Below are positions 28,535 to 45,596 of a DNA stretch of 64,000 bases, one piece after another. The position numbers were made by a program, and so were the translations under genes. Under the pieces are notes generated by a model. The model ran no database searches and was not told the DNA's origin. It saw only the letters and a program-made list of their open reading frames with translations. Positions within the stretch are counted from its first letter, which is position 1. Each line of letters begins with the position of its first letter. Where the stretch lies: the NCBI RefSeq assembly GCF_016863135.1, contig NZ_BOOH01000036.1, positions 1 to 64,000 of the forward strand, given 5' to 3'. Origin of the DNA: Planobispora longispora. Its GTDB lineage: Bacteria; Actinomycetota; Actinomycetes; Streptosporangiales; Streptosporangiaceae.

Positions 28535-28722
28535 GCGGCATCCCTCCCGCTCTCGGCGGGGACGGTTGGAGCGGCATCGGCCCGCTGGTGAGAGAACTCG
28601 ATGCCGTAGATGGCAGCGATACGCCACCACTTCTCGGGTGAACGCTCAGGGGCCTGAGCGATCATGCGCTTAGTCCACTCCTCGATAAGCGCGGCTTGCG
28701 GTACCGGTCCTCTGGGTACCAA
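28531..28722 (-). CDS. Small protein coupled upstream of rep
   Basis: 63 residues, TTG start at 28720-28722 with GGAAAGGAG 5 bases upstream, ending in an ATGA overlap with rep. It contains ALIEEWTKRMIAQAPERSPEKWWRIAAIYGI, a helical basic/aromatic segment. Its position between the non-coding origin-like region and rep is where these elements carry excisionase or replication-helper genes. I see no clear winged-helix excisionase motif, so the role is open. Confidence 0.65.
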   Translation of the reverse strand: MVPRGPVPQAALIEEWTKRMIAQAPERSPEKWWRIAAIYGIEFSHQRADAAPTVPAESGRDAA

Positions 28723-28784
28723 TTCGCTCCTTTCCTCGCAGGGAAAGCCGCCGCCTGCATCGGGAAAAGGGCGAGCGCCATCGC

Positions 28785-28809
28785 CGGATATGCCGGAACG
28801 GCATATCCG
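28785..28809. repeat. 25-bp perfect dyad upstream of rep
   Basis: CGGATATGCCG (28785-28795), GAA, then CGGCATATCCG (28799-28809): 11-bp perfect arms and a 3-base loop. About 60 bases upstream of the small gene preceding rep. Candidate Rep nicking hairpin or operator. Confidence 0.75.
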
Positions 28810-29112
28810 CTCTTGCGGTGGTGTCTCTTTCAGCGAGAGCGCGGAGTGTTAGGTTTTGCGCGACGGTTTAGCCAGGTGAGCACTGCCGTTAGTGTGGGCC
28901 TACCGCTGGCCGGGTCCCCCCAGCGGAACGGCTCGTCATCGTTTTATTGCCTGGTGGCGTTCTGTGCTCGATCTGTCGCGGCTGGTGTCTCGCTGCTTCC
29001 CGAAGTACGGGGCTTTTTTCGTACTCACATTTGTACCACTCGAAAGGTGAATGTATGCAGACCAAGGTTCCCTGCAGTTCATTAACCGTGCGTCCCCGTG
29101 AGAGTGCCTAGA

Positions 29113-29147
29113 CGTCCAGTGGCGTCCGGTTGCGTCCCATGGCGTCC
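29113..29147. repeat. Four short iterons, 10-bp period
   Basis: CGTCC occurs at 29113, 29123, 29133 and 29143 with exact 10-bp spacing, i.e. on one face of the helix. Three of the four are GCGTCC; the first is ACGTCC. Candidate binding array for Rep or for a regulator. Confidence 0.5.
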
Positions 29148-29188
29148 GACCGCATGCGGTTGCATCTGATCGTTTGAGGAGCATAAGT

Positions 29189-29228
29189 AAGGGAGCTGAC
29201 GCCTTTTGGTAAGGTAGCCAGCTCCCTT
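29189..29228 (-). terminator. Hairpin after the integrase gene
   Basis: AAGGGAGCTG (29189-29198) and CAGCTCCCTT (29219-29228) form 10 perfect pairs with a 20-base loop. It lies 30 bases past the integrase stop on the minus strand, so it probably ends that transcript. Confidence 0.55.
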
Positions 29229-29257
29229 GATCGACGAGGACGTCTCAGGACGTCCGG

Positions 29258-30796
29258 TCAGTCTTCCCGCCAGACCGGTTCCAGCAGATCGGGGTTGAAG
29301 GGCTTGTAGCCCCCGCCCGCCGGATGGACGATCACGGCGAGCAGCTCTTCCCGGATGTGTGCTCGCTTCTGCGACAGAGCCAGACCGCCTTCTTCTTCGG
29401 GCAGGTCCCAACGACGGCGGAGTTCGGTGATGTCGATCGCCGAGCTTGCGCGCTGACGCTCGACCGAGGCGGCATGCCTGTTCTTCTCCGCACGGAGCCG
29501 ACTGATCGTCTTCTCAAGCCGGGGAAGGGCACTGAAGAAGAACTCGTTGCTGACTTCCTCGCTCTCCCATTTCGCCGTCAGAGCATCACGGCGCTTCATG
29601 GCAGCGGACAACTCATCTTCTTTGTCCCAGGAGGAATCCTGTTCAGGGGCGTTGAAGACCGCTCCCGCTTCCATGAAGTTCAGGACGAGCTGAGAGATCG
29701 CGAAGTCCACCAGGTCACCGCGCCGACTGACACCACCGCACCCGCCCGCGCCTTTCGACTGGCACTGATAGAGGTGATAGTCCTTCCCCTTCGGCTTTGA
29801 CGCCCGCAGCCGCTTGTTGCAGATCGTGCCGTTGGGCATCAGCCGTCCACACCGGAGGAACCCGGTAAGCAGATAGGTGTGCTCCCGCCAATCCTGTGAG
29901 AGAGGGCCGGAGACAGCCCCGTCGCTGCCCACTTGGTGGCCTTTCCGGCTGTCGATGATCGCTTGTACGGCGAGCCACTCTTCCGGGGTGAGAATCGGAG
30001 TCCACTGGCCGACGACGGGGTTGCCCTCCGCATCCCGTACGAAGTCTCCGTTGAGCCGACGCCAGCCGCACAACCGGGGAGCGGCCAGCATGGTCCCCAA
30101 GGTCTGCACTCGCCAGGGGTTGCCCCGAGGGGTCAGCACGCCCGCCTTCTGCCACTCCGTCACGATCGAGTTGAGGGAACGGCCCGCGATGAAGTCACGC
30201 GCGGCCTTCTGGATGAGCGGAGCTTCGGCAGGGTCGAGGGCCAGGCGATCGGCCTTCCAGCCGAACGGACGCACCCCGCCCACCGGCTTGCCCTGCATGG
30301 CCCGCGCCTGATGCGAACGGCGCATGCGGCGCTGGATCTTCCGAGCCTCCATCTTGGAGATGACCACGCCGAACATGCCCATGCTCTCTACGTCCTCGCT
30401 GTAGAGGTTCTTGACGCTCTTGGAGTCGGCGAAGACGAAGCCATCGTTGTAGGTGAACGCGTCAACGAAGCGTTCATAGTCACCCGAACGCCGGGCAAGG
30501 CGGTCATCGGCCACGACCACCACACCACGGACCGGCGTGCCGTCGGGGAGTTGGCCCTTGCGCAGGGCTACGAGCATCGCTTCGAAGCCGTCGCGGACGA
30601 CATCGGCCTTCGAGGCGGACTTGTCGTTGTCGGTGAACTGATGCACAACAGTCCACCCGCAACGGGCAGCAGTCTCGTGGTTCACGATGTGCTGGTCCTT
30701 CACACCGTGTTCGTCCTTCTTGGTGTCCGCCGAGATGCGAGCGTATGAGACCACCGGGATCGGGGAGTCTGGCCCCAGCGCGACCAAGCGTGGCAT
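29258..30796 (-). CDS. Large serine integrase
   Basis: 512 residues. Resolvase domain with the nucleophile in SYARIS (Ser22) and the arginine-bearing VVVVADDRLARRSGDY. A recombinase domain (about 175-290: GGVRPFGWKADRL...TPRGNPWRVQTLGTML) follows, then a zinc-ribbon (CGRLMPNGTICNKRL...YQCQSKGAGGC) and a C-terminal coiled coil (about 395-450). ATG 30794-30796 has a near-perfect AAGGAGG site. The start lies only 36 bases from the attR core, the usual int-attP arrangement. It recombines attP with a site in a 5'-nucleotidase gene. A longer frame up to 31300 is only the nucleotidase gene read backwards. Confidence 0.95.
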   Translation of the reverse strand: MPRLVALGPDSPIPVVSYARISADTKKDEHGVKDQHIVNHETAARCGWTVVHQFTDNDKSASKADVVRDGFEAMLVALRKGQLPDGTPVRGVVVVADDRLARRSGDYERFVDAFTYNDGFVFADSKSVKNLYSEDVESMGMFGVVISKMEARKIQRRMRRSHQARAMQGKPVGGVRPFGWKADRLALDPAEAPLIQKAARDFIAGRSLNSIVTEWQKAGVLTPRGNPWRVQTLGTMLAAPRLCGWRRLNGDFVRDAEGNPVVGQWTPILTPEEWLAVQAIIDSRKGHQVGSDGAVSGPLSQDWREHTYLLTGFLRCGRLMPNGTICNKRLRASKPKGKDYHLYQCQSKGAGGCGGVSRRGDLVDFAISQLVLNFMEAGAVFNAPEQDSSWDKEDELSAAMKRRDALTAKWESEEVSNEFFFSALPRLEKTISRLRAEKNRHAASVERQRASSAIDITELRRRWDLPEEEGGLALSQKRAHIREELLAVIVHPAGGGYKPFNPDLLEPVWRED

Positions 30797-30821
30797 GACG
30801 CCTCCTTGAGAACCTCGCCTC

Positions 30822-30838
30822 AAGGAATGTTCTACATC
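30822..30838. other. attR junction
   Basis: Element sequence GGAATGTTCTACATC passes into host sequence CAGAAGGTGCAG. CTACATC at 30832-30838 matches 21173-21179; the half-site ATGTTCTA mirrors TAGAACAT at attL. Confidence 0.85.
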
Positions 30839-31447
30839 CAGAAGGTGCAGACCGAGACGGTGAAGAAGGCCCTGGAGGGGACGGCCGACGCCGCCCTGCC
30901 GGTGCTGTCGATCTCCGCGCCGTTCAGCCGCAGCGCGGTCTTCCCCGCCGGCCCGGTCAGCGTCCGCGACATGGCGGGCCTGTACATCTACGACAACACC
31001 CTGATGGCCGTCAAGCTCACCGGCGCCCAGCTCAAGGAGTACCTGGAGTATTCCGCCAGGTACTTCAACCAGCTCGCCCCCGACGCCCCGGTCGACCTGG
31101 CCGCCCTGACCAACGCCGGCGGCACCCCCGACTACAACTACGACCAGTTCTCCGGCGTCACCTACGACATCGACGTCGCCAAGCCGGTCGGCCAGCGCAT
31201 CACCGGCCTGTCCTACCAGGGTCAGCCGGTCACCGCCGACCAGCAGTTCGCGGTCGCCATCAACAACTACCGCCAGTCCGGCGGCGGCGGCTTCCCGCAT
31301 GTCACGACCGCCCCGGTCCTGTACAACGCCCAGGTCGAGATCCGGCAGGCGCTGATCGACTACGCCACCGCCACCGGCACCATCGACCCGGCCGCCTTCG
31401 CCGAGCCCAACTGGAAGCTCACCCGCGAGGGCCGGCCCCTCTTCTGA
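30839..31447 (+). pseudogene. 5'-nucleotidase, C-terminal part
   Basis: 202 codons in frame with the broken 5'-nucleotidase at 20031-21179, starting QKVQTETVKKAL and holding the substrate-binding 5_nucleotid_C domain (LPVLSISAPF, GLYIYDNTLM, NYRQSGGGGFP). It has no start codon with a ribosome site of its own; a TTG at 30806 opens the frame but lacks one. It is likely untranslated unless the element excises. High-GC host codon use resumes exactly at the junction. Confidence 0.9.
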
Positions 31448-32788: not shown

Positions 32789-33062
32789 ACTTCGCCCCCA
32801 TTCGAAGATCTTTACGGGGAGACACTAACGGCTCCGGGCGCGGCGGACCCCCGATGTCACTCATCTCGTCCGAGGCGAATCGGGACGGCGCCGAAGGGGA
32901 TGCAGGAGGGCGAGACGTCTTCCAGCGTGCGGACTGTTTTCGTCCGACCGCAGGTGGCGAGGGGGACGGGCGCGGAGCCCGCCGCACCTGATGCGCCAAT
33001 AGGTGTTTCTTGGCCGCCGCATGGGTAACACAGGTGATCAAGAGCAGATAAGGAGCGGCACT
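32789..33062 (+). promoter_or_regulatory. Upstream region of the first 31-residue ORF
   Basis: 274 bases of promoter-type sequence divergent from the SRPBCC gene. Near the micro-ORF it has AAGGAG at 33050-33055 (7 bases before its GTG). Farther up is a CGGAC/GTCCG hairpin element at about 32930-32946 and a short CACCT/AGGTG dyad (32985-33005). No other gene is supported. Confidence 0.5.
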
Positions 33063-33158
33063 GTGAAGAGAGTCCAGATCGTCCAACGTCCGCGCCCACC
33101 CCGTAAGCCGGTCTCACTCGACCTGCGGACGCCCTCCGGCCGGATTCTCCCCTTCTGA
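33063..33158 (+). CDS. 31-residue Pro/Arg-rich micro-protein, copy 1
   Basis: GTG start, AAGGAG 7 bases upstream, 31 codons, TGA at 33156. N-terminus MKRVQI, centre PRPPR, then LDLRTPSG and C-terminus LPF. Net charge about +7 with six Pro. It is 25/31 identical to the ORF at 40715 with the same length, start context and end. At the identical positions most codons differ by synonymous changes, so the protein is under selection. It is a stand-alone gene, since the next gene is on the opposite strand. No signal peptide or known family. Too short for usual gene callers. Confidence 0.85.
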   Translation: MKRVQIVQRPRPPRKPVSLDLRTPSGRILPF

Positions 33159-33162
33159 CCCC

Positions 33163-34287
33163 TCAGCTCGCCTTCAGCGCTTCTGAGAGATCCTCGGCGT
33201 ACAGCCAGCCGGTGGCCCTCTCGTAGAAGTGCCTGAAGAAGATCGGCATGATCAGCTCATTGACCCGGCGGCCGACCGGTCCCGCCGTCTTGGCGTCCCG
33301 GTTCGCGCTCGCGGCCCTGGCCATCTTCGCCACCCGGGCCCGGCGCTCACGGTCGTAGCGGACCAGCGCGGCGGCCACCGAATCCTCCTCCCGCACGGCC
33401 CTGGCCAGGACGACGGCGTCCTCGACGGCCATGGAGGCGCCCTGCCCCGCCCCCACCGGATGCGCGGCGTCCCCGAGGAGAACGGTCCGCCCGTCCTGCC
33501 AGACCGGCACCTCCGCCAGCACGTGGTGGAGCGTCGGGCGGTGCAGCCGGACCGCCGCTCCCAGCACCGCCGACGGCGCCCCGTCGAGGCGGTGGAGCTC
33601 CTTCACGCTCTCCAGGCTCGTGTCCGCGGGCTCCTCCGGACTGCAGACCTGGGCCGACCACCAGACCTCCCCGCCCGGTGCGGTGATGTGGATGAAAGCC
33701 CCGTGCCGCGTGAAGACCATGTTGAACACGCCGGGATCGGCCGCGACATCGCCGGGGACCCGCTCCGACACCCCGGAGACCGTGTAGATCCCGGCGTAGC
33801 GCGGCTCGGGCGCCTCCCCGGCCAGCGTCCTCCTGGTGACCGACCAGATGCCGTCCGCTCCCACCACCAGGTCGGCGCCGGCGGCCTCCGCCGTGATCGT
33901 CTCCGGCCCGACGCGCCTGCCGGTGACGATCTCGGCGCCCGCGCGGACCGCCGCGGCGCGCAGCTCCTCGACCAGGTGACCCCGCATGAGCGTCACGCTG
34001 TTGCGGGGATCGCCTGACAGACGTCCGCGGGGGACGTCGCCGAGCAGCCTGCCGGAGCCGCCCCACATCCGCTGGCGCGGCACCTCGAAGCCCCGCGCGG
34101 CCACCGCCTCCGCGCATCCCAGCGCGCTCAGGGCGCGCAGCCCGTTGCCCGCCAGGCTCAGGAACGAGCCGACCTCACCGCCGGGCTCCTCGTACGCCTC
34201 GACGACGGTGACCTCCGCTCCGACCTTCCGCAGCGCGACCGCGCTCGCCGCGCCGGCCACCCCTCCGCCCACCACGAGTGCGCGCAT
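33163..34287 (-). CDS. FAD-dependent monooxygenase
   Basis: 374 residues. FAD-binding [24 protein letters not shown] (GxGxxG near 8-13), DG motif [12 protein letters not shown] and the second FAD motif [22 protein letters not shown]. This is the PHBH/FAD_binding_3 class that hydroxylates aromatic or polycyclic substrates with NAD(P)H and oxygen. ATG 34285-34287 follows AAGGGGGCG. It is divergent from a TetR gene with a dyad operator between them, so it is probably the TetR target. Confidence 0.88.
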
Positions 34288-34299
34288 GGCGCCCCCTTC

Positions 34300-34332
34300 A
34301 CTGAATTCATATTCACCGAATGTCGATTCAGT
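34300..34332. promoter_or_regulatory. Dyad operator between monooxygenase and tetR-like gene
   Basis: ACTGAAT (34300-34306) and ATTCAGT (34326-34332) form 7-bp perfect arms, with a nested TTCATA/TATGAA pair (34306-34311 and 34331-34336). The AT-rich dyad in the divergent promoter fits a TetR operator. Confidence 0.55.
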
Positions 34333-34377
34333 ATGAAGATTGCTAACGTCGGGAGTCAAGGGACGGGAGAAAGATCG

Positions 34378-35019
34378 ATGGGCGTGCGCAAGGCGAGGGC
34401 GGCGGAGACCGAGGCCGCGCTGAAGGACGCGGCCCGCCGCCTCTTCGCGGAGCGCGGCTACCTGAACACCAAGATCACCGACATCACGGCCGCCGCCGGC
34501 CGGGCCACCGGCTCCTTCTACGACCACTTCGCGGGCAAGGAGGAGTTGCTCCAGGCGCTCATGCGCGACATGGCGGCCCAGGCCGACACCGAGATCGGCG
34601 TCGACGCCCCCTCCGGTGACCCGCACGGCCATCCCCGCGACCACGATCTGACCGACCCCGCCCAGCTCCGCGACCACGTCGCCGTCGCCTGGCACGTCTT
34701 CCGCGACCATCTCCCGGTCATGGTCGCCCTCTTCCAGTCGGCGATGACCGAGCCGCCGGGCTCCGGCCGCGCCTGGACCGCCCTCACCGAGGACACCGCC
34801 GTCCTCCGCGACCACCTGGAGTACCTGCGGGAGCGCGGCCACCCCCTGCCCGGCGATCCCACCGTCGTCGGCGCGGCGATGGGCGCGATGTTGTCGATGT
34901 TCGCCTACGCGGCGCTGGCCTCGGGCGAGAAGGGCCCGGAGATCACCGACGACGAGGCGATCGACACCCTCACCCGCCTCCTCCTGCACGGCCTGGCGGG
35001 TCCGGCCGCCGGCGGGTGA
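34378..35019 (+). CDS. TetR/AcrR-family regulator
   Basis: 213 residues. HTH about 12-58 ([39 protein letters not shown]), then a helical ligand-binding domain. ATG 34378 follows GGGAGAAAG; the frame opens earlier at 34333 but that start would lie in the operator dyad. Divergent from the FAD monooxygenase, which it probably represses in response to a small hydrophobic ligand. The downstream ketopantoate-reductase-like gene (25-base gap) may be in the same transcript. Confidence 0.88.
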
Positions 35020-35044
35020 ACCCCGCTGTGGCAGGATCGCGATC

Positions 35045-36025
35045 ATGCGCTACATCGTGATCGGGGCGGGGGCCGTCGGCGGGACCATCGGCGGGCGGCT
35101 CTTCCAGGCGGGCCACGACGTCCTCCTCGTCGCCCGCGGCGCCCACCACGACGCGATCCGGCGCGACGGCCTGCGCCTGCTCACCCCCGGCTCCGCCCGG
35201 ACGCTCGACGTCCCGGTGACGCGCGGCCCGGTACGGCTCCGCGACGGCGACGTGCTGATCCTGGCGGTCAAGTCACAGGACACGGTCGCCGCGCTCGATC
35301 CCTGGTCCCGGGACGCGCCGGTGGTGTGCGCGCAGAACGGCGTGGCCAACGAGCGCATGGCGCTGCGCCGCTTCGAGCGGGTGTACGGCATGTGCGTCTG
35401 GCTGCCCGCCTCGCACCTGGAGCCCGGGGTCGTGGCGGCCCACGGGGCCCCGAAGTCGGGCCTGCTCCAGCTCGGCCGCTACCCGCGCGGCGCCGACGAG
35501 CTGTCCGAGCGGATCGCCGGGGACCTGTCGGAGAGCTCGTTCGCCGGCGTCGCCGTACCGGACGTGATGCGCTGGAAGTACGCCAAGCTGCTGGGCAACC
35601 TGGGCAACGCCTACGAGGCGCTCTGCGGTCACGCGCCCGGCCACGAGCCGATCATGAAACGGGTGCGCGCCGAGGGCCGGGCCGTGCTGGACGCGGCCGG
35701 GATCGCCTACGCCTCCCCCGAGGAGGAGCGCGCGCGGCGCGGCGCGCAGGTGGAGGTCCGCCCGATCGAGGGGGTGGAGCGCGGCGGCGGCTCCTCCTGG
35801 CAGAGCCTGGCCCGCTCCAGCGGCTCGATCGAGGCCGACCACCTCAACGGCGAGATCGTCATGCTCGGCCGTGAGCTGGGCGTCCCCACCCCGGCCAACG
35901 GGGTGCTGCAGCGCGAGGCCGATCGCGCGGCCCGCGAGCGCCTGTCCCCCGGTTCCATGGCCCCGGAGACCCTCGCCGCCCTCATCGACGCCGAGGCGCG
36001 CCGGACCGGTCCGGCCCCGGACTGA
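35045..36025 (+). CDS. Ketopantoate reductase-like (ApbA/PanE family) oxidoreductase
   Basis: 326 residues. N-terminal Rossmann fold GAGAVGGTIGG, NADP-binding VLLVARG, VKSQDT, CAQNG (as in family CLQNG), catalytic Lys in WKYAKLLGNLGN, C-terminal ApbA domain with SSWQSLARSSGSIEADHLNGEIV. In PanE this reduces ketopantoate in CoA synthesis. Here it follows a TetR/monooxygenase pair, so it may act on another 2-keto acid. Start ATG 35045 is 8 bases after GGCAGGA. Confidence 0.85.
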   Translation: MRYIVIGAGAVGGTIGGRLFQAGHDVLLVARGAHHDAIRRDGLRLLTPGSARTLDVPVTRGPVRLRDGDVLILAVKSQDTVAALDPWSRDAPVVCAQNGVANERMALRRFERVYGMCVWLPASHLEPGVVAAHGAPKSGLLQLGRYPRGADELSERIAGDLSESSFAGVAVPDVMRWKYAKLLGNLGNAYEALCGHAPGHEPIMKRVRAEGRAVLDAAGIAYASPEEERARRGAQVEVRPIEGVERGGGSSWQSLARSSGSIEADHLNGEIVMLGRELGVPTPANGVLQREADRAARERLSPGSMAPETLAALIDAEARRTGPAPD

Positions 36026-36040
36026 GCGCGGGCCGGAAGG

Positions 36041-36769
36041 TCAGGAGAACGGGGTCTTCGGGCGTTCCTGCAGGACCCCGTCCACGTAGACGTCGACCTT
36101 CTCGTCGTAGAAGGCGATCAGCCCCGCGATGCGCTGGCTCTCCTCCAGCGGGGTCCGGTAGGACCAGGCCAGGTCCGCGTGCCCGTTGACCGACCAGTAC
36201 TCCGCCTGCCCCTTGTACGGGCAGCGGCTCGCCGTCCCGGTGGGCGTGAGCAGGTCGAGGCGGACGTCGGTCTTGGGCAGGTAGTAACGCGGCGGCAGCC
36301 CGGTCTCGAACAGGATCCGGGCGTGGCGGGAGTCCGCCACGGTCACCCCGTCGACCTCGACCCTGATGTGGCGGGAGGAGGGCAGGATGTCCACCCGCGC
36401 GTACGGGTCACGGGGATGGACGTAGACCTCCTCGTCCTCCTCGAACCAGGCGTCCATCGCCTCCCACTCCAGGCGCACGTGTCCGCGCAGCTCCTCGATC
36501 GGGGAGTCGGGGTAGGCCAGCGCGGCGTCGGCCACGCCCCCGATGTCGTAGAGGACCCCGTCACCGCGGCTGGGTGATCGCCTGGTCCCGCCGTTGGGCT
36601 CGAGCTCGGCGGTGACGTCCTCGCGGGGGATGTAGTAGGCCGGGTAGTGGGGGATCTCCCAGACCAGCAGCGGGCGGACGGTGTCGGCGACCGCCCTGCC
36701 GCCGAGGAAGGCCCGCACTCTCTTGGCCGACGGTTCGATCCGGACGCGTCCACGAGTGATCGGCTCCAT
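36041..36769 (-). CDS. Double DUF427-domain protein
   Basis: 242 residues made of two DUF427-like beta modules (about 15-110 and 130-235), each with an RP/YYxP pattern (PAYYIPREDV; PRYYLPKTDV) and CPYKGQAEYWSV. Function of the domain is unknown; it is common in actinobacteria. ATG 36767-36769 follows GGGGGA; a longer frame to 36859 has no ribosome site. An upstream dyad GTAAGA-N5-TCTTAC (36870-36886) could be an operator. Confidence 0.82.
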   Translation of the reverse strand: MEPITRGRVRIEPSAKRVRAFLGGRAVADTVRPLLVWEIPHYPAYYIPREDVTAELEPNGGTRRSPSRGDGVLYDIGGVADAALAYPDSPIEELRGHVRLEWEAMDAWFEEDEEVYVHPRDPYARVDILPSSRHIRVEVDGVTVADSRHARILFETGLPPRYYLPKTDVRLDLLTPTGTASRCPYKGQAEYWSVNGHADLAWSYRTPLEESQRIAGLIAFYDEKVDVYVDGVLQERPKTPFS

Positions 36770-36869
36770 TCCCCCGCCAACCCCGCACCGGCCCCCGCTA
36801 TTCCCGGCCGGATCCAACGGCCGACTCCCACGGGGTTGATCTCCGGGCTGTTTTGTCATTTACGTCTAA

Positions 36870-36886
36870 GTAAGATCCGGTCTTAC
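36870..36886. promoter_or_regulatory. Dyad upstream of DUF427 gene
   Basis: GTAAGA (36870-36875), TCCGG, TCTTAC (36881-36886): perfect 6-bp arms in an AT-richer promoter stretch about 100 bp before the DUF427 start. Possible regulator site. Confidence 0.4.
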
Positions 36887-36974
36887 GTAGATCCGATCGA
36901 CATTCCCCGCTTGGCATAAGAAGTGTCACAACGGCTTCCGGTCTTCACCCGGACTCCATACGCCCGATCGGCGG

Positions 36975-38351
36975 TCAGGATGGTCGCGGGGCGAAGATGT
37001 CCGCAGCGGTGACGCACATGACATCGGCGCCCGCGTTGGTGACGGACTCTCTGGCGCATACGGCGTAGCGGAGTTCCCCGGGACTCTTGGTCAAGTGCGC
37101 CGCCTTCGCCGCGAGGTCGGCAGCGATCCGTCCCGCGTTCACCCTCCTTCCCCATTTCGCCTCACCGACCAGAATCGGCGTCCTGGACCGGCCGCTGAGG
37201 GCCACCGCGTCGATCTGGTGCTGGCCGTCACCCCGCCACCACGGCCCGATCGCCACCACCTCGGGCCCGATCTCCGTGGCTCGGAGTCTCAGATGATCAC
37301 GGAATGCCTCTTCCCAGGCGTCCCCCATGTGATCGTCCAGGGAGGCCATCAGCACCGGCAGGACCGTCTCGCCGAGACCCCGATCGATCTCGGGCAGGAC
37401 ACGCGAGAGCGCGCCCAGATAGAAGGCGAGAAAGTTGTCGGTGATGCGGTAGACCTTGCGGCGGGTGCGCGCGGACTCCGTGACCGGCTGAAGCCTCTCC
37501 ACCAGACGGAGGGCCAGCAGATCGTTGAGCGTGCGCGTCGGATCGGCGCCGATCGCGTCGGCGATCTCGTTGTGCTTGGTGCAGCCCTCGGCGATGGCCT
37601 GAAGCGTGGCAGCGAGATGCGCTCCCTGCCCCGCCTCGGTGGCGAGCACGAGATCCCCCTCGCGGATCATCCTCGCGTCGGGACGACAGGCGAGCCGTTT
37701 GAGGTTGTCCTCGATCGAGAGTTCCTGTCTCCACCACGAGAGGTAGAGAGGCATGCCGCCGAGGATTCCGTACACCAGAGCACGGTCCGCCGGGGTCAAG
37801 CCGGGCAGCATCTCGGCCGCCTCATGCGGGCGGAACGGATGCAGCTGCATCGTCAGGTCGAACCGGCCGTAGAGAGGCGCGCGGTATTCCTGGATCGCCT
37901 GCATCGTACGGACGGCCGAGCCGCACAAGACAATGCGGAGTTTGGTCTGCCCGTGGGAGTGGTCGAGGAAGGCACGGAGCACGCCTTCCAGCTCCGGCGC
38001 CTGCCCAATCATCTCCGGGAACTCGTCGAGCACCAGCAGCAGCGGTTCCTCCCGCGCCTCCCGGCCGAGATGGTCAAGTGCCTCGTCCCAGTTCCCGAAG
38101 GGACGTGCGCGAAGGTCCCTCGTAGGAGAGCGGATGGCATCAGCGGCCCGGTAGGAGAACTCCTCTAATTCGCGGCGGGGTGTGCGATTTCCTCCGGTGT
38201 GGAAGACCACTCGCCTGTCTGACGCGAACTCTTGAAGAAGGGCCGTCTTACCCACGCGTCTCCGGCCCCAGACAAGGGCGGGCCGCGCGTCCGGCTCCCC
38301 CCACCATTCCTTCAGTGCTCCCAGTTGCTCTTGCCGTCCGACGAAAGTCAT
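36975..38351 (-). CDS. DUF234-type AAA ATPase with nuclease-like C-terminus, second copy
   Basis: 458 residues. Walker A GRRRVGKT at 29-36, Walker B LLLVLDEFPEMIG, IVLCGSAVRTM, a winged-helix region (EGCTKHNEIADAIGADPTRTLNDLLAL) and a C-terminal PD-(D/E)xK-like fold (HQIDAVAL ... LVGEAKWG). Same architecture as 7342-8763, with ECK-like EAKW in place of EVEW. ATG 38349-38351 is the family-typical start (MTFVGRQEQL). A frame opens further upstream at 38442 and would add a repetitive DV/DI-rich leader translated from the inverted repeat at 38364-38411; that seems unlikely. No strong ribosome site. Confidence 0.82.
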   Translation of the reverse strand: MTFVGRQEQLGALKEWWGEPDARPALVWGRRRVGKTALLQEFASDRRVVFHTGGNRTPRRELEEFSYRAADAIRSPTRDLRARPFGNWDEALDHLGREAREEPLLLVLDEFPEMIGQAPELEGVLRAFLDHSHGQTKLRIVLCGSAVRTMQAIQEYRAPLYGRFDLTMQLHPFRPHEAAEMLPGLTPADRALVYGILGGMPLYLSWWRQELSIEDNLKRLACRPDARMIREGDLVLATEAGQGAHLAATLQAIAEGCTKHNEIADAIGADPTRTLNDLLALRLVERLQPVTESARTRRKVYRITDNFLAFYLGALSRVLPEIDRGLGETVLPVLMASLDDHMGDAWEEAFRDHLRLRATEIGPEVVAIGPWWRGDGQHQIDAVALSGRSRTPILVGEAKWGRRVNAGRIAADLAAKAAHLTKSPGELRYAVCARESVTNAGADVMCVTAADIFAPRPS

Positions 38352-38363
38352 AGGAACAACGTA

Positions 38364-38411
38364 ACCGACCTGGATGTCGGCGACATCGATATCGCCGACA
38401 TCCAGGTCGGT
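38364..38411. repeat. Perfect 20-bp inverted repeat upstream of DUF234 ATPase
   Basis: A 20-base arm (38364-38383, beginning ACCGACCTGG) and its exact complement (38392-38411) flank an 8-base centre, ending 13 bases from the ATPase start codon. As RNA it would form a very stable hairpin covering the leader. The unit GACATC/GATGTC recurs further out to 38432. Candidate operator or translational switch. Confidence 0.8.
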
Positions 38412-38611
38412 GACGTCGGTGTCGGTGATGTTGCCATGCATAGCTGGATCTTCGGAGCATCGGAGCTCTTGAGCACCCCGAACGGGCTTTTCGGGAGCGG
38501 CGAGCGCTCGATAACCCCTTGCCAAAGCGGCGGAAACCAGGGAGGTTTGCCCCGGCCGATCGGCGTGCCGACGCGCGCCCCGGCCCGATGTCACCTGCCG
38601 AAAGGACCTCC

Positions 38612-39304
38612 ATGACCGATTCGACGCCGCACGTCGACACCCCCGCCGCGGCCCCCCGGCCCGTCCTCGACCCCGCCGTCGGCGATTACCTGCTCGCGCA
38701 CTGCTCTCCCGCCGACGAGCTGCTCCGCGAACTCGCCGCCGAGACCCGCCAGGCCACCGGCGACGCGGCCGGAATGCAGATCTCCCACGACGAGGGCGCC
38801 TTCCTGACCATGCTGGTCCGGATGACCGGCGCCCGCCGGGCCGTCGAGGTGGGCGTGTTCACCGGCTACTCCTCCATCTGCATCGCCCGCGGCCTGCCCG
38901 CGGACGGCCACCTGCTCGCCTGCGACGTCAGCACCGAGTGGACCTCCATCGCCGAGCGCTACTGGGAGCGCGCGGGCGTGGCCGGGCGCATCGAACTGAG
39001 GATCGCGCCCGCGATCGAGACCCTGCGGGCGCTCCCGGCCGAACCGGAGATCGACTTCGCCTTCATCGACGCCGACAAGACCGGCTACCCCGCCTACTAC
39101 GAGGAGCTGGTCCCGCGGCTGCGGCCGGGCGGCCTCGTCGTCCTGGACAACGTCTTCCTCGGCGGCCGCGTGTTCGATCCCGCCTGCCAGGACGAGGCGG
39201 CCGTCACCATGCGCCGCGTGAACGAGATCGTGGCCGGTGACGAGCGGGTCGACTCGGTGATGCTGCCCGTGCGCGACGGCGTCACGGTCGCCCGCAGGCG
39301 CTGA
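38612..39304 (+). CDS. SAM-dependent O-methyltransferase (caffeoyl-CoA type)
   Basis: 230 residues. SAM-binding VEVGVFTGYSSICIA, AFIDADKTGYPAYYEE (metal-binding Asp), LDNVFLGGRVFD. This is the class I, Mg-dependent catechol/caffeoyl-CoA O-methyltransferase family. ATG 38612 follows AAAGGACC. Divergent from the ATPase across the palindrome region. Substrate likely a catechol or flavonoid-like phenol; pathway unknown. Confidence 0.88.
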   Translation: MTDSTPHVDTPAAAPRPVLDPAVGDYLLAHCSPADELLRELAAETRQATGDAAGMQISHDEGAFLTMLVRMTGARRAVEVGVFTGYSSICIARGLPADGHLLACDVSTEWTSIAERYWERAGVAGRIELRIAPAIETLRALPAEPEIDFAFIDADKTGYPAYYEELVPRLRPGGLVVLDNVFLGGRVFDPACQDEAAVTMRRVNEIVAGDERVDSVMLPVRDGVTVARRR

Positions 39305-39381
39305 CCTCCCGAACGTCGCGCACGCCCGGATCCTCGGGCATCCGCCCGTTCCGGAGGGCCGCCGGGGGGCATTCTGGGGAC

Positions 39382-40605
39382 ATGCGGCGGATGGCGAAGG
39401 TGCGGGTGGCGGTCGCGACCGCCGGTGTCTGTCTCGTGGCGGCGTGCACGGCGGGCCGTACGGCGGCGCCCGCGTCCTCACCGGCGCCGGAGCGCCCGCC
39501 GGCGTCCGCCTCCCCGGCCGCGCCGGGCCGCGCCACGGCTCAGGGCGCGACACCGGACCCGCGGGCCACCGGGGAGGTCGCGGCGGCCCCGGAATGGAAG
39601 GTCGCACCCGATCCCGAGCTGTCGGGCAGCGCCGCCCTGGTGGACGTGGCGGTCGCCGGGCCGGGGGACGTGTGGGCCGTCGGCTACCAGGAGAGCGCCG
39701 AGGATCGGGAGGGCTCCCCCGCCGTCGTCCGATGGGACGGGACGCGATGGCGCGAGGTGCCCGTGAACGAGCAGGACCTGTACCACGTGGAGGGCGTCAG
39801 CGCGGGCGCGCCGGACGACGTGTGGATCGTCGGCAACGGCGAGACCGCCGTCGCTGCGCGCTGGGACGGACGGCGGTGGACGCGGGAGCGGCCGTTCGGG
39901 GTCGCGCAGGACTACCGGTTCACCGACGTCGCGGTCTCCGGCGGACGGGCGTGGTTCACCGCCAACAACCGGTCGGGAACGGTGATCCTGGAGTGGGGCG
40001 ATGGCAAGTTCCGCAACGCCTACCAGAGCGGCGGGACCCTGCGGGCGATCACCGTGAAGGACGGGCACGTCTGGACGGTCGGCGACAACGAGTCGAGGCC
40101 GATGATCCTGCACGGCACCGGCGACGCGTGGGAGACCATCCACATCCCGGACATCCCCGGCGGCAGGCTGAACCGGGTCTGGCAGATCTCACCGTCCGAC
40201 GTCTGGGCGGTGGGCGAGATCACGACCGGCTCCCCCGATGTGCACGACGGCCGCCCCTCCGAGCCGCTGTCCCTGCACTGGGACGGGTCTCGCTGGACGC
40301 GCGCGGAGCTGCCGGTCGCCCGGGGCTCGCTGCACGGGGTCACCGCGTTCGGCGGTGACGACGTCTGGGTCAGCGGCGTGGACGCCGACCATTCGGGCCA
40401 GCCGCTCCTGCTCCACTTCGACGGCGCCCGCTGGACCGCGCAGTACGGCCCGCTGCTCCGGCCCTACGAGGAGGACCAGCAGTACGAGGTGTCCGACGAC
40501 GTCCGGCGTACCGGCATCGCCCGGGTCCCGGGCACCGGGACGCTCTGGGTCGTCGGCTCGGTCGGCTGGGGGGACGCGGAGACCGGCTTCACGCTGCGCC
40601 GCTGA
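39382..40605 (+). CDS. Lipoprotein with WD/Kelch-like beta-propeller
   Basis: 407 residues. Type II signal peptide with lipobox LVAAC (Cys22), a long Ala/Pro/Ser spacer (about 25-70), then repeats containing DVWAVG, DVWIVG, HVWTVGD, DVWAVGEI, DVWVSG, TLWVVGS, i.e. six or so propeller blades. Exposed on the cell surface; a binding scaffold. Start could be ATG 39382 or 39391. No partner gene apparent. Confidence 0.82.
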   Translation: MRRMAKVRVAVATAGVCLVAACTAGRTAAPASSPAPERPPASASPAAPGRATAQGATPDPRATGEVAAAPEWKVAPDPELSGSAALVDVAVAGPGDVWAVGYQESAEDREGSPAVVRWDGTRWREVPVNEQDLYHVEGVSAGAPDDVWIVGNGETAVAARWDGRRWTRERPFGVAQDYRFTDVAVSGGRAWFTANNRSGTVILEWGDGKFRNAYQSGGTLRAITVKDGHVWTVGDNESRPMILHGTGDAWETIHIPDIPGGRLNRVWQISPSDVWAVGEITTGSPDVHDGRPSEPLSLHWDGSRWTRAELPVARGSLHGVTAFGGDDVWVSGVDADHSGQPLLLHFDGARWTAQYGPLLRPYEEDQQYEVSDDVRRTGIARVPGTGTLWVVGSVGWGDAETGFTLRR

Positions 40606-40628
40606 GCCCCGCCGCCCCGGAGTCCGGA

Positions 40629-40649
40629 TCTGAGACGGGAGGTCTCAGA
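40629..40649. terminator. Perfect 8-bp hairpin after the propeller gene
   Basis: TCTGAGAC (40629-40636) and GTCTCAGA (40642-40649) pair fully around GGGAG. It lies 24 bases past the lipoprotein stop and 66 before the micro-ORF. Either a terminator without T-tract or part of the micro-ORF leader. Confidence 0.55.
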
Positions 40650-40684
40650 AAGCGGACGAAACAAGCCGCTGGATGGCGTAGTCT

Positions 40685-40708
40685 CTCCCAAACTCCAACA
40701 AATGGGAG
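40685..40708 (+). promoter_or_regulatory. Hairpin sequestering the ribosome site of the second micro-ORF
   Basis: CTCCCA (40685-40690) is complementary to TGGGAG (40703-40708), which contains the GGGAG ribosome-binding site of the ATG at 40715. Loop 12 bases. Such pairing would lower translation unless opened, as in translational switches. Copy 1 at 33063 has no equivalent hairpin. Confidence 0.5.
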
Positions 40709-40714
40709 TAAGAC

Positions 40715-40810
40715 ATGAAAAGGGTTCAAATCCTGCAGAAGCCTCGTCCGCCCCGCCAGCCCGCCCCGCTCGACCTCCGCACCCCCTCAGGGCGACCGCT
40801 GCCCTTCTGA
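40715..40810 (+). CDS. 31-residue Pro/Arg-rich micro-protein, copy 2
   Basis: ATG start with GGGAG 6 bases upstream, 31 codons, TGA at 40808-40810. N-terminus MKRVQI, centre PRPPR, then LDLRTPSG and C-terminus LPF; net charge about +6, eight Pro. It differs from copy 1 at residues 7, 9, 15, 17, 18 and 28 only. At the 24 other identical non-start positions 17 codons carry synonymous differences, so the two are old duplicates kept by selection. Ends 219 bases before a lipoprotein gene on the same strand. Function unknown; not seen in any family I know. Confidence 0.87.
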   Translation: MKRVQILQKPRPPRQPAPLDLRTPSGRPLPF

Positions 40811-41029
40811 CGCGCATATGCCCCCCCTGACCGTACGGGTGCCCTTCCGGCCCGTATGGGCGATCACGGCGGACCGCGCCTGCCATGACCAGGGCGGACG
40901 GTTCCGCGCGCCGCAGGGCGCCCGCCGGTCCCGCCCACAATCGAGTCCTTCCTGTAAGCCCCGTGTAAGTGATCCGCAAGGAGAGCCCTCTACCTTCTGA
41001 TCGTCACACTTTGCAATGAAGGGCTAGAA

Positions 41030-41416
41030 ATGTTCCGCCTTCTCTCTCCCCGCCGCATCGCCGTCGCCGTCGCGGGGGCCGCACTCATCTCCACCACCGC
41101 CGCCTGCGGTGCCGGCGCCAACGCCTCCCTCTGCGCCGACGCACAGAAGCTTTTCACCGACTACTCCTCCTCGGCTCCCGCCGCGTCCGCCGACCTCGCC
41201 AAGCTCAACGAGCTGAACGCGAAGTTCGCCGCGGACCTGAAGGCGCTGGCCGGCAAGGCCGACGGTGACCTGGCGTCCGCGCTCGGCGACCTCGCCAAGA
41301 CCTGGGACGGGCTGCAGATCGACCCCAGCAACCCGAGCGCGGCCATCTCCGCCGCTCAGGAACTGACCACCAACCTCACGCAGGCCGCCGCCAAGATCGA
41401 AGGCGCCTGTTCCTGA
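41030..41416 (+). CDS. Small secreted lipoprotein
   Basis: 128 residues; N-terminal RR and hydrophobic stretch, lipobox TTAACG (Cys26), then a helical Ala/Lys/Leu-rich domain (coiled-coil-like, about 35-125) with two further Cys (LCADAQ near the start, EGACS at the end) that may form a disulfide. ATG 41030 has AAGGGC 6-11 bases upstream. No recognised family. May share a transcript with the micro-ORF at 40715. Confidence 0.75.
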   Translation: MFRLLSPRRIAVAVAGAALISTTAACGAGANASLCADAQKLFTDYSSSAPAASADLAKLNELNAKFAADLKALAGKADGDLASALGDLAKTWDGLQIDPSNPSAAISAAQELTTNLTQAAAKIEGACS

Positions 41417-41730: not shown

Positions 41731-42468
41731 CTGTGCGCGGTGATCGACTCGCGAGCATCAGATCGTCGGAGTACGGCGCTCCCGATGGCGCCGCCTCGGC
41801 CCCGGACAGCAAGCCCTCCTGGTCCTGGCACATCTACACGGGCGGTGACACCTACGCCCGCCTGGCCGAAGGGTTCGCCATCGGCACCACTACCGCCTGG
41901 CGCTACGTGCGCGAGGCGGTCGACCTGGTCGCCGCCTTGGCCGACGACGTGCACACCGCCGCGTGGAAGGCCTCCCGCCTGGCCTACGCCGTCCTGGATG
42001 GCACGCTTGTCCCGATCGACCGGCTGGCCGACGATGCGCCGTACTACTTTCGGAAAACATCACCGGCACGGGGTGAACGTGCAGTTCCTCGCCGATCCGG
42101 CCGGCCGCCTGGTGTGGGCCTCGCCCGCGCTGCCCGGCGCCGTGCACGATCTGACCGCGGCCCGGCGGACCGGCCTGATCGGCGCCCTTACCGGGGCCGG
42201 TGTCCAGGTCTTCGCCGACCAGGGATATCAGGGTGCGGGCGGCACGATCCGCACGCCGTTCAAGCGCCACCGGCACCGGCCGCGCCTGTCGCGCCACCAG
42301 AAGTCCGTCAACCGCGCCCACGCCCGTATCCGGGCGATCGGGGAACGCGCCGCCGCGACCCTGAAGGCGTGGAAGGTGCTGGTCCGGCTGCGCTGCTGCC
42401 CGCGCCGCGCCGCCACGATCGTCCAGGCCATCCTCGTCCTGCAGCTCATCGAGGAGAACCGCTACTGA
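41731..42468 (+). pseudogene. IS5-type (DDE_Tnp_4) transposase remnant
   Basis: Three frames join into one transposase: RWRRLGPGQQALLVLAHL, then DTYARLAEGFAIGTTTAWRYVREAVD...GTLVPIDRLADDAPYY, then GKHHRHGVNVQFLADPAGRLVW...CCPRRAATIVQAILVLQLIEENRY. Frame changes fall at about 41836 and 42050. The N-terminus is missing or damaged. DDE residues: Asp in LDGTLVPID, Asp in VFADQGYQG, Glu in RAIGERA. A dead insertion sequence; ends at 42468. Confidence 0.85.
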
Positions 42469-42777
42469 GGATGAAAAACGCTCCTGGTGCCCGCTACCTC
42501 GTTACGAGCGACACCCTGCAACCATCCAACCTTATATAAGTCCACTGCCACATCATGAAACATTTCCTATTCTACAGGACACGCAAAATTGCTCAGTGCC
42601 CAGGCATGGCCTCCGACATACCAGCAGGCCGAACCCACGCCAAGGCCACCGTCCCGAACACTGAGCAATTTAAGGAACTCCAGCTAGACATCGGCTACCC
42701 AGCCTTACACAAATGCCGCCCTGTACCCTTCACCGCAAAGGACAGACACCACTGGAATTCCCTAGCGTCAGACAGGT
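42469..42777. other. AT-richer intergenic stretch with long-arm inverted repeat
   Basis: 309 bases of lower-GC DNA without a supported gene (one frame at 42555 lacks a ribosome site). Contains the 13-bp inverted repeat at 42586-42671. The composition resembles the secreted-protein gene next to it, not the chromosome. Confidence 0.5.
42586..42671. repeat. 13-bp perfect inverted repeat, MITE-like
   Basis: AAATTGCTCAGTG (42586-42598) and CACTGAGCAATTT (42659-42671) enclose 60 bases. The 86-bp unit has the size and shape of a miniature inverted-repeat element or deleted IS, but no target-site duplication is visible. Could instead be a long-loop RNA hairpin. Confidence 0.6.
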
Positions 42778-43062
42778 CTAGATTTCCCGCAGCAGATGAT
42801 ATTCAGTGTTGCTGACTCTAGCGCACCTGACATTGATACCCTGCGCCGCGTAAGGGAGACTGTTTGCCGCACACAGGCTAAGTGCACTACGTCCGTAGTA
42901 TATATCTATGAGCACCCAGGCCGCAGCCCGAACCGTCGAGCTCGCCCCTACGGCAGACGAAGACGCGGCTTGCGGTGACGATGCCGCTTCGGCTGGAGCT
43001 GAAAGGAATACACCCAGAGCTAAAGAGATGGCAGCACTGAGCGCCGCATACTTAATCTTCAT
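42778..43062 (-). CDS. Small secreted protein with one Cys pair
   Basis: 94 residues. Sec signal peptide 1-26 (MKIKYAALSAAISL...APAEAA), then a Ser/Ala linker and a compact C-terminal region (WVLIDIYYGRSALSLCAANSL...NVRCARVSNTEY) with two Cys positioned for a disulfide. Strong ribosome site GAGGGAGC before ATG 43060-43062. Lies alone between insertion sequences in low-GC DNA. Looks like an exported peptide or inhibitor; no family recognised. Confidence 0.75.
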   Translation of the reverse strand: MKIKYAALSAAISLALGVFLSAPAEAASSPQAASSSAVGASSTVRAAAWVLIDIYYGRSALSLCAANSLPYAAQGINVRCARVSNTEYHLLREI

Positions 43063-43267
43063 TGCTCCCTCGACTCTCTTGGAGTTTCTCCAACACCTGA
43101 AAGCATTACACTCAAGCAGAATCTGACCAAGAGGCCAAAGGGTGCTTTATAAATTCGTTACCATATAGCGTGTAGCAATTATCTGACCTTCTGCAATACT
43201 CATCGCCCCCCTTCTCGTAAGGCAAACACTTTCTGCTCAACGTACTGACCGCAGGGCCGAAGCGTTC
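43063..43267 (-). promoter_or_regulatory. Promoter region of the secreted Cys-pair protein
   Basis: 205 bases of AT-rich DNA upstream (minus strand) of ATG 43062, ending at the left end of the IS256-type element. No ORF. The composition contrasts with the flanking IS and chromosome. Confidence 0.4.
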
Positions 43268-44637
43268 GGGAGTGTAAGAACAACGGTGTAACTCCTGATC
43301 AAGGAGAACGCACCTGATGAGTACTGTGATCCAGGCATCGACGGAGATCGACCTGGAGGACGCCGCAGTGGCGCGCAACAAGCCCGAGGACTCAACAGGT
43401 CGGCAGCTGGTGGCCCGGCTGGTCGATCAGGCCCGCGCCGAGGGCATAGAGCTGGTCGGGGAGAACGGGCTGCTGGGCCGGCTGACCAAGCTGGTGCTGG
43501 AGTCCGCTCTGGAGGGTGAGATCACCGACCATCTCGGCCACGACAAGCACGAGCGCTCCGGCAACGAGACCGGCAACACCCGCAACGGCAGCCGGTCCAA
43601 GACCGTGCTCACCGATGTCGGGCCGGTGGAGCTCAGCGTGCCGCGCGATCGCGACGGCAGCTTCGAGCCGAAAATCGTGCGCAAGCGGCAGCCGCGCCTG
43701 TCCGGCGTCGATGAGATGGTCATCTCGCTGGCCGCCAAGGGCCTGAGCACCGGGGAGATCTCCGCGCACCTGGCCGAGGTCTACGGCGCCGAGGTGTCCA
43801 AGCAGACGATTTCCACCATCACCGACAAGGTGCTGGAGGGCATGGCCGAATGGCAGAACCGGCCGCTGAATGCGGTCTACCCGGTGATCTTCGTCGATGC
43901 CATCCACGTCAAGATCCGCGACGGTCAGGTCGCCAACCGGCCCATCTACGTGGCACTGGCCGTCACCGTCGACGGCGAGCGCGACATCCTCGGGCTATGG
44001 GCCGGTGACGGCGGCGAGGGCGCCAAGTTCTGGCTGCATGTGCTGACCGAGATCAAGAACCGCGGCGTCGGCGATGCGCTGATGGTGGTCTGCGACGGGC
44101 TCAAGGGCCTGTCACAGGCCATCGAAAGCGTCTGGCCGCAGGCGGTGGTGCAGACCTGCGTGGTGCACCTGCTGCGCGCGAGCTTCCGCTACGCCGCCCG
44201 CCAGCACTGGGACGCCATCGCGCGTGCGTTGCGGCCGGTCTACACCGCGCCGACCGAGGCCGCCGCCCTCGAGCGCTTCATGGAGTTCGCCGAGCTCTGG
44301 GGCGGCCGCTATCCGGCGATCGTGAAGCTGTGGGAGGACGCCTGGGCCGAATTCGTGCCCCTTCCTCAACTTCGATGCCGAGATCCGCCGGGTGATCTGC
44401 TCGACCAACGCCATCGAGGCGGTCAAGGCCCGTGGCCATTTCCCGAACGAGCAGGCCGCGCTCAAGTGCGTCTACATGGCGATCATGAGTCTGGATCCGA
44501 CCGGCAAGGGCCGCAAGCGCTGGGTCACCCGCTGGAAGGCCGCGCTGAACGCCTTCGCCATCACCTTCGACGGCCGCCTGACCCCGACCAGCCGATAACT
44601 AATCAAGATCGAGATACACCGTTATCTAGACACACCC
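43268..44637. mobile_element. IS256-type insertion sequence, degenerate
   Basis: Left end GGGAGTGTAAGAACAACGG (from 43268) and the complement of the right end (to 44637) GGGTGTGTCTAGATAACGG share an imperfect terminal repeat with the core AACGGTGTA and about 20 of 28 bases matching. Length 1,370 bp. No exact 8-bp target duplication remains (flanks AAGCGTTC and AGGCTTAC), so it is old or was rearranged. Confidence 0.75.
43317..44598 (+). pseudogene. IS256-family (mutator) transposase, frameshifted and deleted
   Basis: Reads as an IS256 transposase from ATG 43317 (MSTVIQAS) to about 44360, with LVLESALEGEITDHLGH, YPVIFVDAIHVKIRDG (first Asp) and VCDGLKGLSQAI (second Asp). At about 44360 an extra C (CCCC for CCC) shifts the frame. 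The rest (FDAEIRRVICSTNAIE...ALKCVYMAIMSLDPTGKGRKRWVTRWKAALNAF) follows in another frame to 44598. Inside that part the usual stretch after STNAIE (SVNARIRR) is missing, an in-frame deletion of about 24-27 bases. Two independent lesions, so inactive. Confidence 0.88.
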
Positions 44638-44756
44638 AGGCTTACGGCGGCTATATCTTCTGGAGGACCCCCAGAGTGCGTTACGTGAGCCTCTGACCGC
44701 GATGTCACAGTGTAATCGCATGGACTTGTAGCGTTGCTGCCGGTTGGTGGGTCCGG

Positions 44757-45596
44757 ATGTACTGGGATGACTCGATGACCGAGCGCAAGTCCTACCCGAG
44801 CGACTTAACCGACGCGCAGTGGGCGTTGATCGAGCCGGTTCTCACGGCATGGAAGGCCGCCCACCCCTCAGTCAGCGGCCACAAGGGCAACTACGAGCTG
44901 CGCGAGATCGTCAACGCGATCCGCTACCAGGGACGAACTGGCGTTCAATGGGACTACCTCCCCCACGATCTGCCGTCAAAGGGCGCGACGTACTACTACT
45001 TCGCCAAGTGGCGCGACGACGGCACCGACAAGACGATCCACGACCTGCTGCGCTGGCACCTGCGCGAGAAGAAGAAGCGATTAGCCGACCCGAACCTGGT
45101 CGTGCTGGACACCCAGAGTGTCCACGTCGCGGCCGGAGTCTCCGCCTCCGCCACCGGAAAGGATGCCGCGAAACGGGTACCAGGCAGGAAACGGGGCCTG
45201 GCCGTAGATGTTCTCGGGCTGGTCATCCCGGTCGTCGTCCTCGCGGCCTCTACTCATGACAACGCCGCCGGGATCGCTCGGGTCGCCGCCGTCACCGAGG
45301 GCGCCGTGACCAAAGCGCTGGTCGACCAGGGGTTCAAGAATACGGTCGTCGCCCACGGGGCCGGCCGGGGGATCGAGGTAGACATCGTCGAACGCAACCC
45401 CGCCGGCAAAGGGTTCGTCCCCCAGCCGAAGCGCTGGATCGTCGAGCAGACCTACGGAATCTTGATGTTCCACCGGCGCCTGGTCCGCGACTACGAGCAC
45501 CGTCCCTCCAGTTCCGAATCACGGGTGTATTGGGCAATGACGGATGTGATGTCCCGCCGTCTGACCCGTGCCGCCCCGTCCTGGCGGTGGACATGA
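44757..45596 (+). CDS. IS5-family transposase, intact
   Basis: 279 residues, with IS5-type N-terminal domain (SDLTDAQWALIEPVL...GRTGVQWDYLPHDLP), first Asp in VVLDTQSVH, second Asp in LVDQGFKN and Glu in WIVEQTYGILMFHRRLVRDYE. ATG 44757 or ATG 44772 may be the start. It ends in an ATGA overlap with the passenger frame. A TTA codon (KKKRLADPN) is present. DDE acid set complete, so possibly still mobile. Confidence 0.88.
   Translation: MYWDDSMTERKSYPSDLTDAQWALIEPVLTAWKAAHPSVSGHKGNYELREIVNAIRYQGRTGVQWDYLPHDLPSKGATYYYFAKWRDDGTDKTIHDLLRWHLREKKKRLADPNLVVLDTQSVHVAAGVSASATGKDAAKRVPGRKRGLAVDVLGLVIPVVVLAASTHDNAAGIARVAAVTEGAVTKALVDQGFKNTVVAHGAGRGIEVDIVERNPAGKGFVPQPKRWIVEQTYGILMFHRRLVRDYEHRPSSSESRVYWAMTDVMSRRLTRAAPSWRWT

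Follow-up and report, generated by a model that had tools for sequence, protein, structure and literature searches.

Among the small damage- or stress-inducible proteins of bacteria, SidA of Caulobacter (about 29 amino acids) is a membrane inhibitor of division. Proline-rich peptides of insects and mammals (oncocin, apidaecin, Bac7) bind in the ribosome tunnel. In mycobacteria, the RecA-independent damage promoter (RecA-NDp) follows the consensus tTGTCRgtg-N8-TAnnnT (PMC5656591) and is bound in vivo by PafBC (PMC6789036). We describe here a family of microproteins, two members of which are encoded in a stretch of 64,000 nucleotides of Planobispora longispora (Streptosporangiaceae; contig NZ_BOOH01000036.1, positions 1 to 64,000, forward strand), hereafter the window. 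The microprotein recalls SidA in size and, for part of the family, in a damage-type promoter, but it has no membrane segment and carries another motif. One subfamily shares with the proline-rich peptides an Arg/Pro-rich stretch, whereas the conserved part is a C-terminal DLR(T/S)PSGRxLP(F/Y). The apparent likeness to the PafBC-dependent RecA-NDp regulon lies in the element TGTCRGTG-N8-TAnnnT, which precedes recA and other genes of the window's genome and to which near-matches stand before part of the family; the excerpts of PMC5656591 and PMC6789036 at hand name no such microprotein.

At the level of sequence, a protein-coding family, the selection on it and the invariance of its tail are demonstrated, and a new protein family is the firm result. 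The preliminary description of this DNA had reported two open reading frames (ORFs) of 31 residues, each with its own ribosome site, and is exact in this:

33050..33055, + strand: Shine–Dalgarno sequence AAGGAG of copy 1, seven bases 5′ of the GTG
33063..33158, + strand: microprotein gene copy 1, stop codon included; 31 amino acids, GTG start, reading MKRVQIVQRPRPPRKPVSLDLRTPSGRILPF and stop
40704..40708, + strand: Shine–Dalgarno sequence GGGAG of copy 2, six bases 5′ of the ATG
40715..40810, + strand: microprotein gene copy 2, stop codon included; 31 amino acids, ATG start, reading MKRVQILQKPRPPRQPAPLDLRTPSGRPLPF and stop

Both ORFs are intact. As also described before, the two peptides differ at six residues (both starts read as M) and the codons differ at 17 of the 24 identical non-start residues; for the pair, the proportions of synonymous and nonsynonymous differences are pS 0.78 and pN 0.14. 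Neither outcome that had been named as telling against selected duplicates (an absence of homologous short ORFs, or a dN/dS close to 1) was found: homologues exist, and the pooled pN/pS is 0.26 over 576 related pairs. Nucleotide identity is 0.74 in the ORF and 0.29–0.30 in the flanks, the level of unrelated sequence, in agreement with an old duplication and strong selection at the protein level.

The peptides are mostly 30–33 residues long. They open with a short conserved segment of consensus M(K/R)R(I/V)x(I/V); the linker that follows is basic, rich in Pro and Arg and variable, whereas the C-terminus, (L)DLR(T/S)PSGRxLP(F/Y), hardly varies and runs directly into the stop codon. Starts are ATG or GTG in 170 of the 175 loci with an acceptable start (178 loci were examined), and GGAGGA is matched at four or more of its six bases in 163 of the 175, a figure partly built in, as the starts were picked partly by their Shine–Dalgarno match. 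The invariant residues are encoded by several synonymous codons, and therefore the constraint acts on the protein. The serine at position –8 is encoded by TCN in 147 of 148 cases, whereas AGY makes up 31% of the serine codons in neighbouring genes. TCN and AGY codons cannot be interconverted by a single base change, which argues for common descent and against convergence. At that serine, TCA represents 22% of the codons (2.7% of the serine codons in neighbouring genes), and the GC content at third codon positions is 0.82 in the microprotein genes and 0.91 in the neighbouring genes. The mean net charge is +6.8, with 19% Pro, and Cys occurs in 4 of the 164 distinct members. There is neither a hydrophobic signal sequence nor a membrane segment, and AlphaFold, run on 63 aligned members, gives an extended chain without secondary structure (predicted TM score 0.16).

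The window peptide, used as query, has homologues in 17 of 61 genomes (E<1e-3), almost all of them full-length and all without an internal stop codon, with E values down to 1e-14, which confirms that the two ORFs did not arise by chance. The microprotein is present in 82 of the 151 genomes of the family sample (1–5 copies apiece), in about 39 of 297 genomes of the class sample (profile search, E<=1e-5) and in 6 of 296 of the phylum sample, one of the six lying outside the class. At least 119 stretches in named genomes matched a degenerate DNA pattern of the tail, from Streptosporangium, Nonomuraea, Microbispora, Herbidospora, Actinomadura, Thermomonospora, Streptomyces, Kitasatospora, Streptacidiphilus, Yinghuangia, Kribbella and others; the named-genome sample was drawn with this pattern, and the protein and profile searches (61-, 151- and 297-genome samples) are free of that bias. 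Altogether, 164 distinct peptides were collected from Streptosporangiales, Streptomycetales, Kribbella and other Actinomycetes. Streptomyces sp. SirexAA-E is one of the carriers (locus L164). In the Streptomyces wedmorensis copy (L144), a frameshift separates the N- and C-terminal halves, about 150 bases up to the stop of the tail, which reflects either decay of this copy or a mistake in the sequence. The microprotein is also found on two phage contigs of IMG/VR (L217 and L218). On L217, its gene is divergent from a DUF932 gene (Pfam); on L218, the downstream protein resembles that DUF932 protein in look, without a Pfam match. A tblastn search of annotated phage and plasmid records gave no match, although the low-complexity filter may mask matches there.

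The family is undescribed and absent from the curated protein libraries searched, as had been proposed: searches of Pfam, NCBIfam, PHROGs and PDB sequences with the microprotein gave no match, and neither the tail motif nor DUF5999 (see below) was found in the literature searched. Its absence from the curated libraries is probably due to the length of the genes, about 31 codons.

Gene order establishes a genetic association of a subset of the family with DUF5999 (PF19462, E 1e-34). A DUF5999 gene lies near 22 of the 178 loci, in 21 of them on the same strand with at most one gene in between, where about 0.1 adjacencies in 178 would be expected by chance (our own estimate, assuming about two DUF5999 genes per genome); several of the 21 loci are mutually orthologous, so that independent events are fewer. 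The microprotein gene comes first and is followed by DUF5999 in 13 loci, from Nonomuraea and its relatives; the order is reversed in five (L045, L066, L092, L093, L195), and three (L131, L143, L157) have the order DUF5999–HATPase–microprotein. A small HATPase_c_2-type protein is encoded directly 5′ of the microprotein in seven loci (one confirmed by Pfam). DUF5999 itself occurs in 144 of the 151 genomes of the family sample. Without correction for phylogeny, two or more DUF5999 genes are present in 68 of 82 genomes with the microprotein versus 6 of 69 without it and, when only genomes of 7 Mb or more are counted, in 61 of 70 versus 1 of 12.

DUF5999 is, like the microprotein, small and actinobacterial, and its ...TGELLPDG turn slightly resembles the SGRxLP of the tail. 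AlphaFold predicts for it a confident beta fold (predicted local distance difference score, pLDDT, 86), and the model gave no significant match in searches of PDB and viral folds. In DUF5999 (L115:6811-7002 and relatives, alignment A5), residues C2, H4, C8, H25 and C34 are invariant, which is suggestive of a metal site. The microprotein has neither that fold nor those residues. Homology between the two was considered and rejected (no Pfam match to PF19462; hhalign profile–profile probability 0.2%).

In a separate subfamily, DLRSPSGRRLPY (L031, L109, L117, L129, L156 and others), the gene adjoins one of the carboxymuconolactone-decarboxylase family; a sigma-factor-like gene is also present at some of these loci, and several members have CAAGCG direct repeats 5′ of a –10-like box.

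Part of the family also stands, by comparison of upstream regions, behind damage-type promoter elements. TGTCRGT-N9-(T/C)AnnnT is found upstream of 15 of the 175 members, versus 0.03 expected in shuffled sequences, and upstream of 1 of 1321 neighbouring genes. If G is also allowed as the first base of the –10, the element precedes 12 of the 13 microprotein–DUF5999 operons; it precedes none of the 64 other DUF5999 upstream regions examined. Searched with the published consensus, the window's genome has 19 sites, versus none for the reversed pattern. The genes 3′ of them (L219–L237) include recA, radA, uvrD, a helicase, ligA, a ClgR-like regulator and two WYL-type regulators, named from their sequences and, for two, checked by Pfam; the element is therefore credible in this lineage. 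Several of these sites are only 6–8 bases before the start codon, as in leaderless transcripts. The following features surround the two copies in the window:

33005..33029, + strand: two conserved upstream blocks of copy 1, GTTTCTTG and CATGGGTAAC, common to orthologues
40663..40684, + strand: putative promoter region of copy 2, with –10 TAGTCT at 40679-40684
40831..40860, + strand: GC-rich hairpin 3′ of copy 2, possibly a terminator, lacking a T run

The 8-mer that adjoins the N8 spacer on its 5′ side reads TGTCRGTS in many orthologues of copy 2, as it does in RecA-independent damage promoters, and the damage element and the –10 TAGTCT are both kept in those of G001, G003 and several other genomes. 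The element is absent upstream of copy 1. There, the DNA between GTTTCTTG and CATGGGTAAC varies among orthologues, and the blocks, a putative promoter (GTTT-N14-GGGTA), resemble the sigma-B/F type. Matches to GTTT-N-GGGTAAC elsewhere in the window's genome are only near chance, and sigma-B control of copy 1 is therefore still a guess. The hairpin 3′ of copy 2 is no more stable than shuffled sequences.

Our best model, to which we give a probability of about one half, is a cytosolic microprotein, linked to stress, that docks on a partner by its C-terminus. It would have no stable fold of its own and would act as a linear motif, the free C-terminal tail docking on a conserved partner, plausibly DUF5999, which is the best candidate, or a protein bound by both. 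The basic linker would contact nucleic acid or another acidic surface. Production would occur under stress, DNA damage in some lineages and other stress regulons elsewhere, and paralogues with different promoters would supply one and the same partner. Translation in vivo, docking, the identity of the partner and the physiological role are what we infer from these patterns.

Several observations weigh against this model. Most members have neither a DUF5999 neighbour nor a damage element, and the co-occurrence with DUF5999 is uncorrected for phylogeny. In the operon group, the –10 starts with C or G and not with T. In the window, the –35 half of copy 2 is degenerate (AAGCCGCT), and the G002 orthologue has also lost that half. 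Since the named genomes were chosen by the motif pattern, the column counts overstate conservation.

Conserved residues that stop exactly at the stop codon, with proline as the penultimate residue, also recall termination-arrest peptides, and a leader peptide, whose C-terminal residues would act at the ribosome, could regulate a gene further down its transcript. However, the strand of the next downstream gene is random (91 –, 81 +; within 250 nt, 64 – and 62 +), and copy 1 is directly followed by a convergent gene for a FAD-binding-domain protein (– strand, 33163). Neighbour clustering at the 178 loci gave no consistent downstream gene and no gene recurring everywhere, and an Rfam scan of the region found no RNA family (mir-3913 alone, on the two strands, with scores well under the gathering threshold). 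This reading is largely refuted and very unlikely. The same clustering gave no recurrent gene for a biosynthetic or modifying enzyme, a protease or a transporter, as would be expected near the precursor of a ribosomally synthesized and post-translationally modified peptide (RiPP) or an exported signal peptide. Short multi-copy genes with a conserved tail would suit such a product, but the core of a RiPP would vary where this tail is conserved, Cys is rare and a hydrophobic signal sequence is missing, which makes this origin distinctly improbable.

The preliminary description had compared the peptide to the core of oncocin and apidaecin, and binding in the ribosome tunnel would agree with the high charge, the proline content and the PRPPR of the window copies. 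That comparison does not hold for the family: PRPPR occurs in 33 of the 164 distinct members and is absent from 131, and the selected part is the C-terminal DLRTPSGRxLPF/Y. We know of no counterpart of DLR(T/S)PSGRxLP(F/Y) in the insect ribosome-tunnel-binding peptides, and we consider this function highly improbable. A further reading is a small structural component of a conserved machine such as the ribosome or RNA polymerase, which some lineages would have lost. Such a component would also be short and basic, with a near-invariant tail and no fold of its own; the patchy distribution (82/151), the divergent paralogues and the differing promoters are unfit for a stoichiometric subunit, and this option is unlikely. 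Chance ORFs or a recent DNA repeat are already refuted by the pN/pS ratio, the unrelated flanks and the family-wide codon pattern, and their probability is close to nil.

The two window copies had been seen as stand-alone genes in unrelated contexts, which is only partly right: the copies are syntenic local duplicates. Both are present on one strand, 2.6–7.7 kb apart, in six genomes (G000, G001, G002, G003, G008, G018), which points to an old local duplication retained in synteny. A third, more distant paralogue, MRRIRIKRPQTRRPIRVPELDLRSPSGRRLPY, was found in the window's genome by profile search (contig C20). The 5′ neighbour of copy 2 is a gene of the same strand (39382-40605) without a convincing Pfam match, and its other neighbour is a putative lipoprotein gene (41030-41416). 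Before copy 1, a possible integrative element (27122-31447) comprises a replication-initiator-like ORF (27122-28630, – strand) and a recombinase-like ORF (29258-31300, – strand). These adjoin a 5′-nucleotidase-like fragment (30806-31447, + strand), and the element was perhaps inserted into that gene. Downstream of copy 2, transposase-like ORFs of several insertion sequence types are clustered (41733-45596).

The model of a stress-linked docking microprotein may be taken further, tentatively, to an actinobacterial stress module, in which the tail would be the ligand of a dedicated receptor, either DUF5999 or a partner shared with it, and the paralogues would be under several stress promoters, including the RecA-independent damage regulon. 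In the family, a twelve-residue tail of a multi-copy gene is kept across several actinobacterial orders. The association provides a first genetic partner for DUF5999, a small protein of unknown function, and the damage-type elements predict that, outside mycobacteria, a PafBC-type damage response includes new members.

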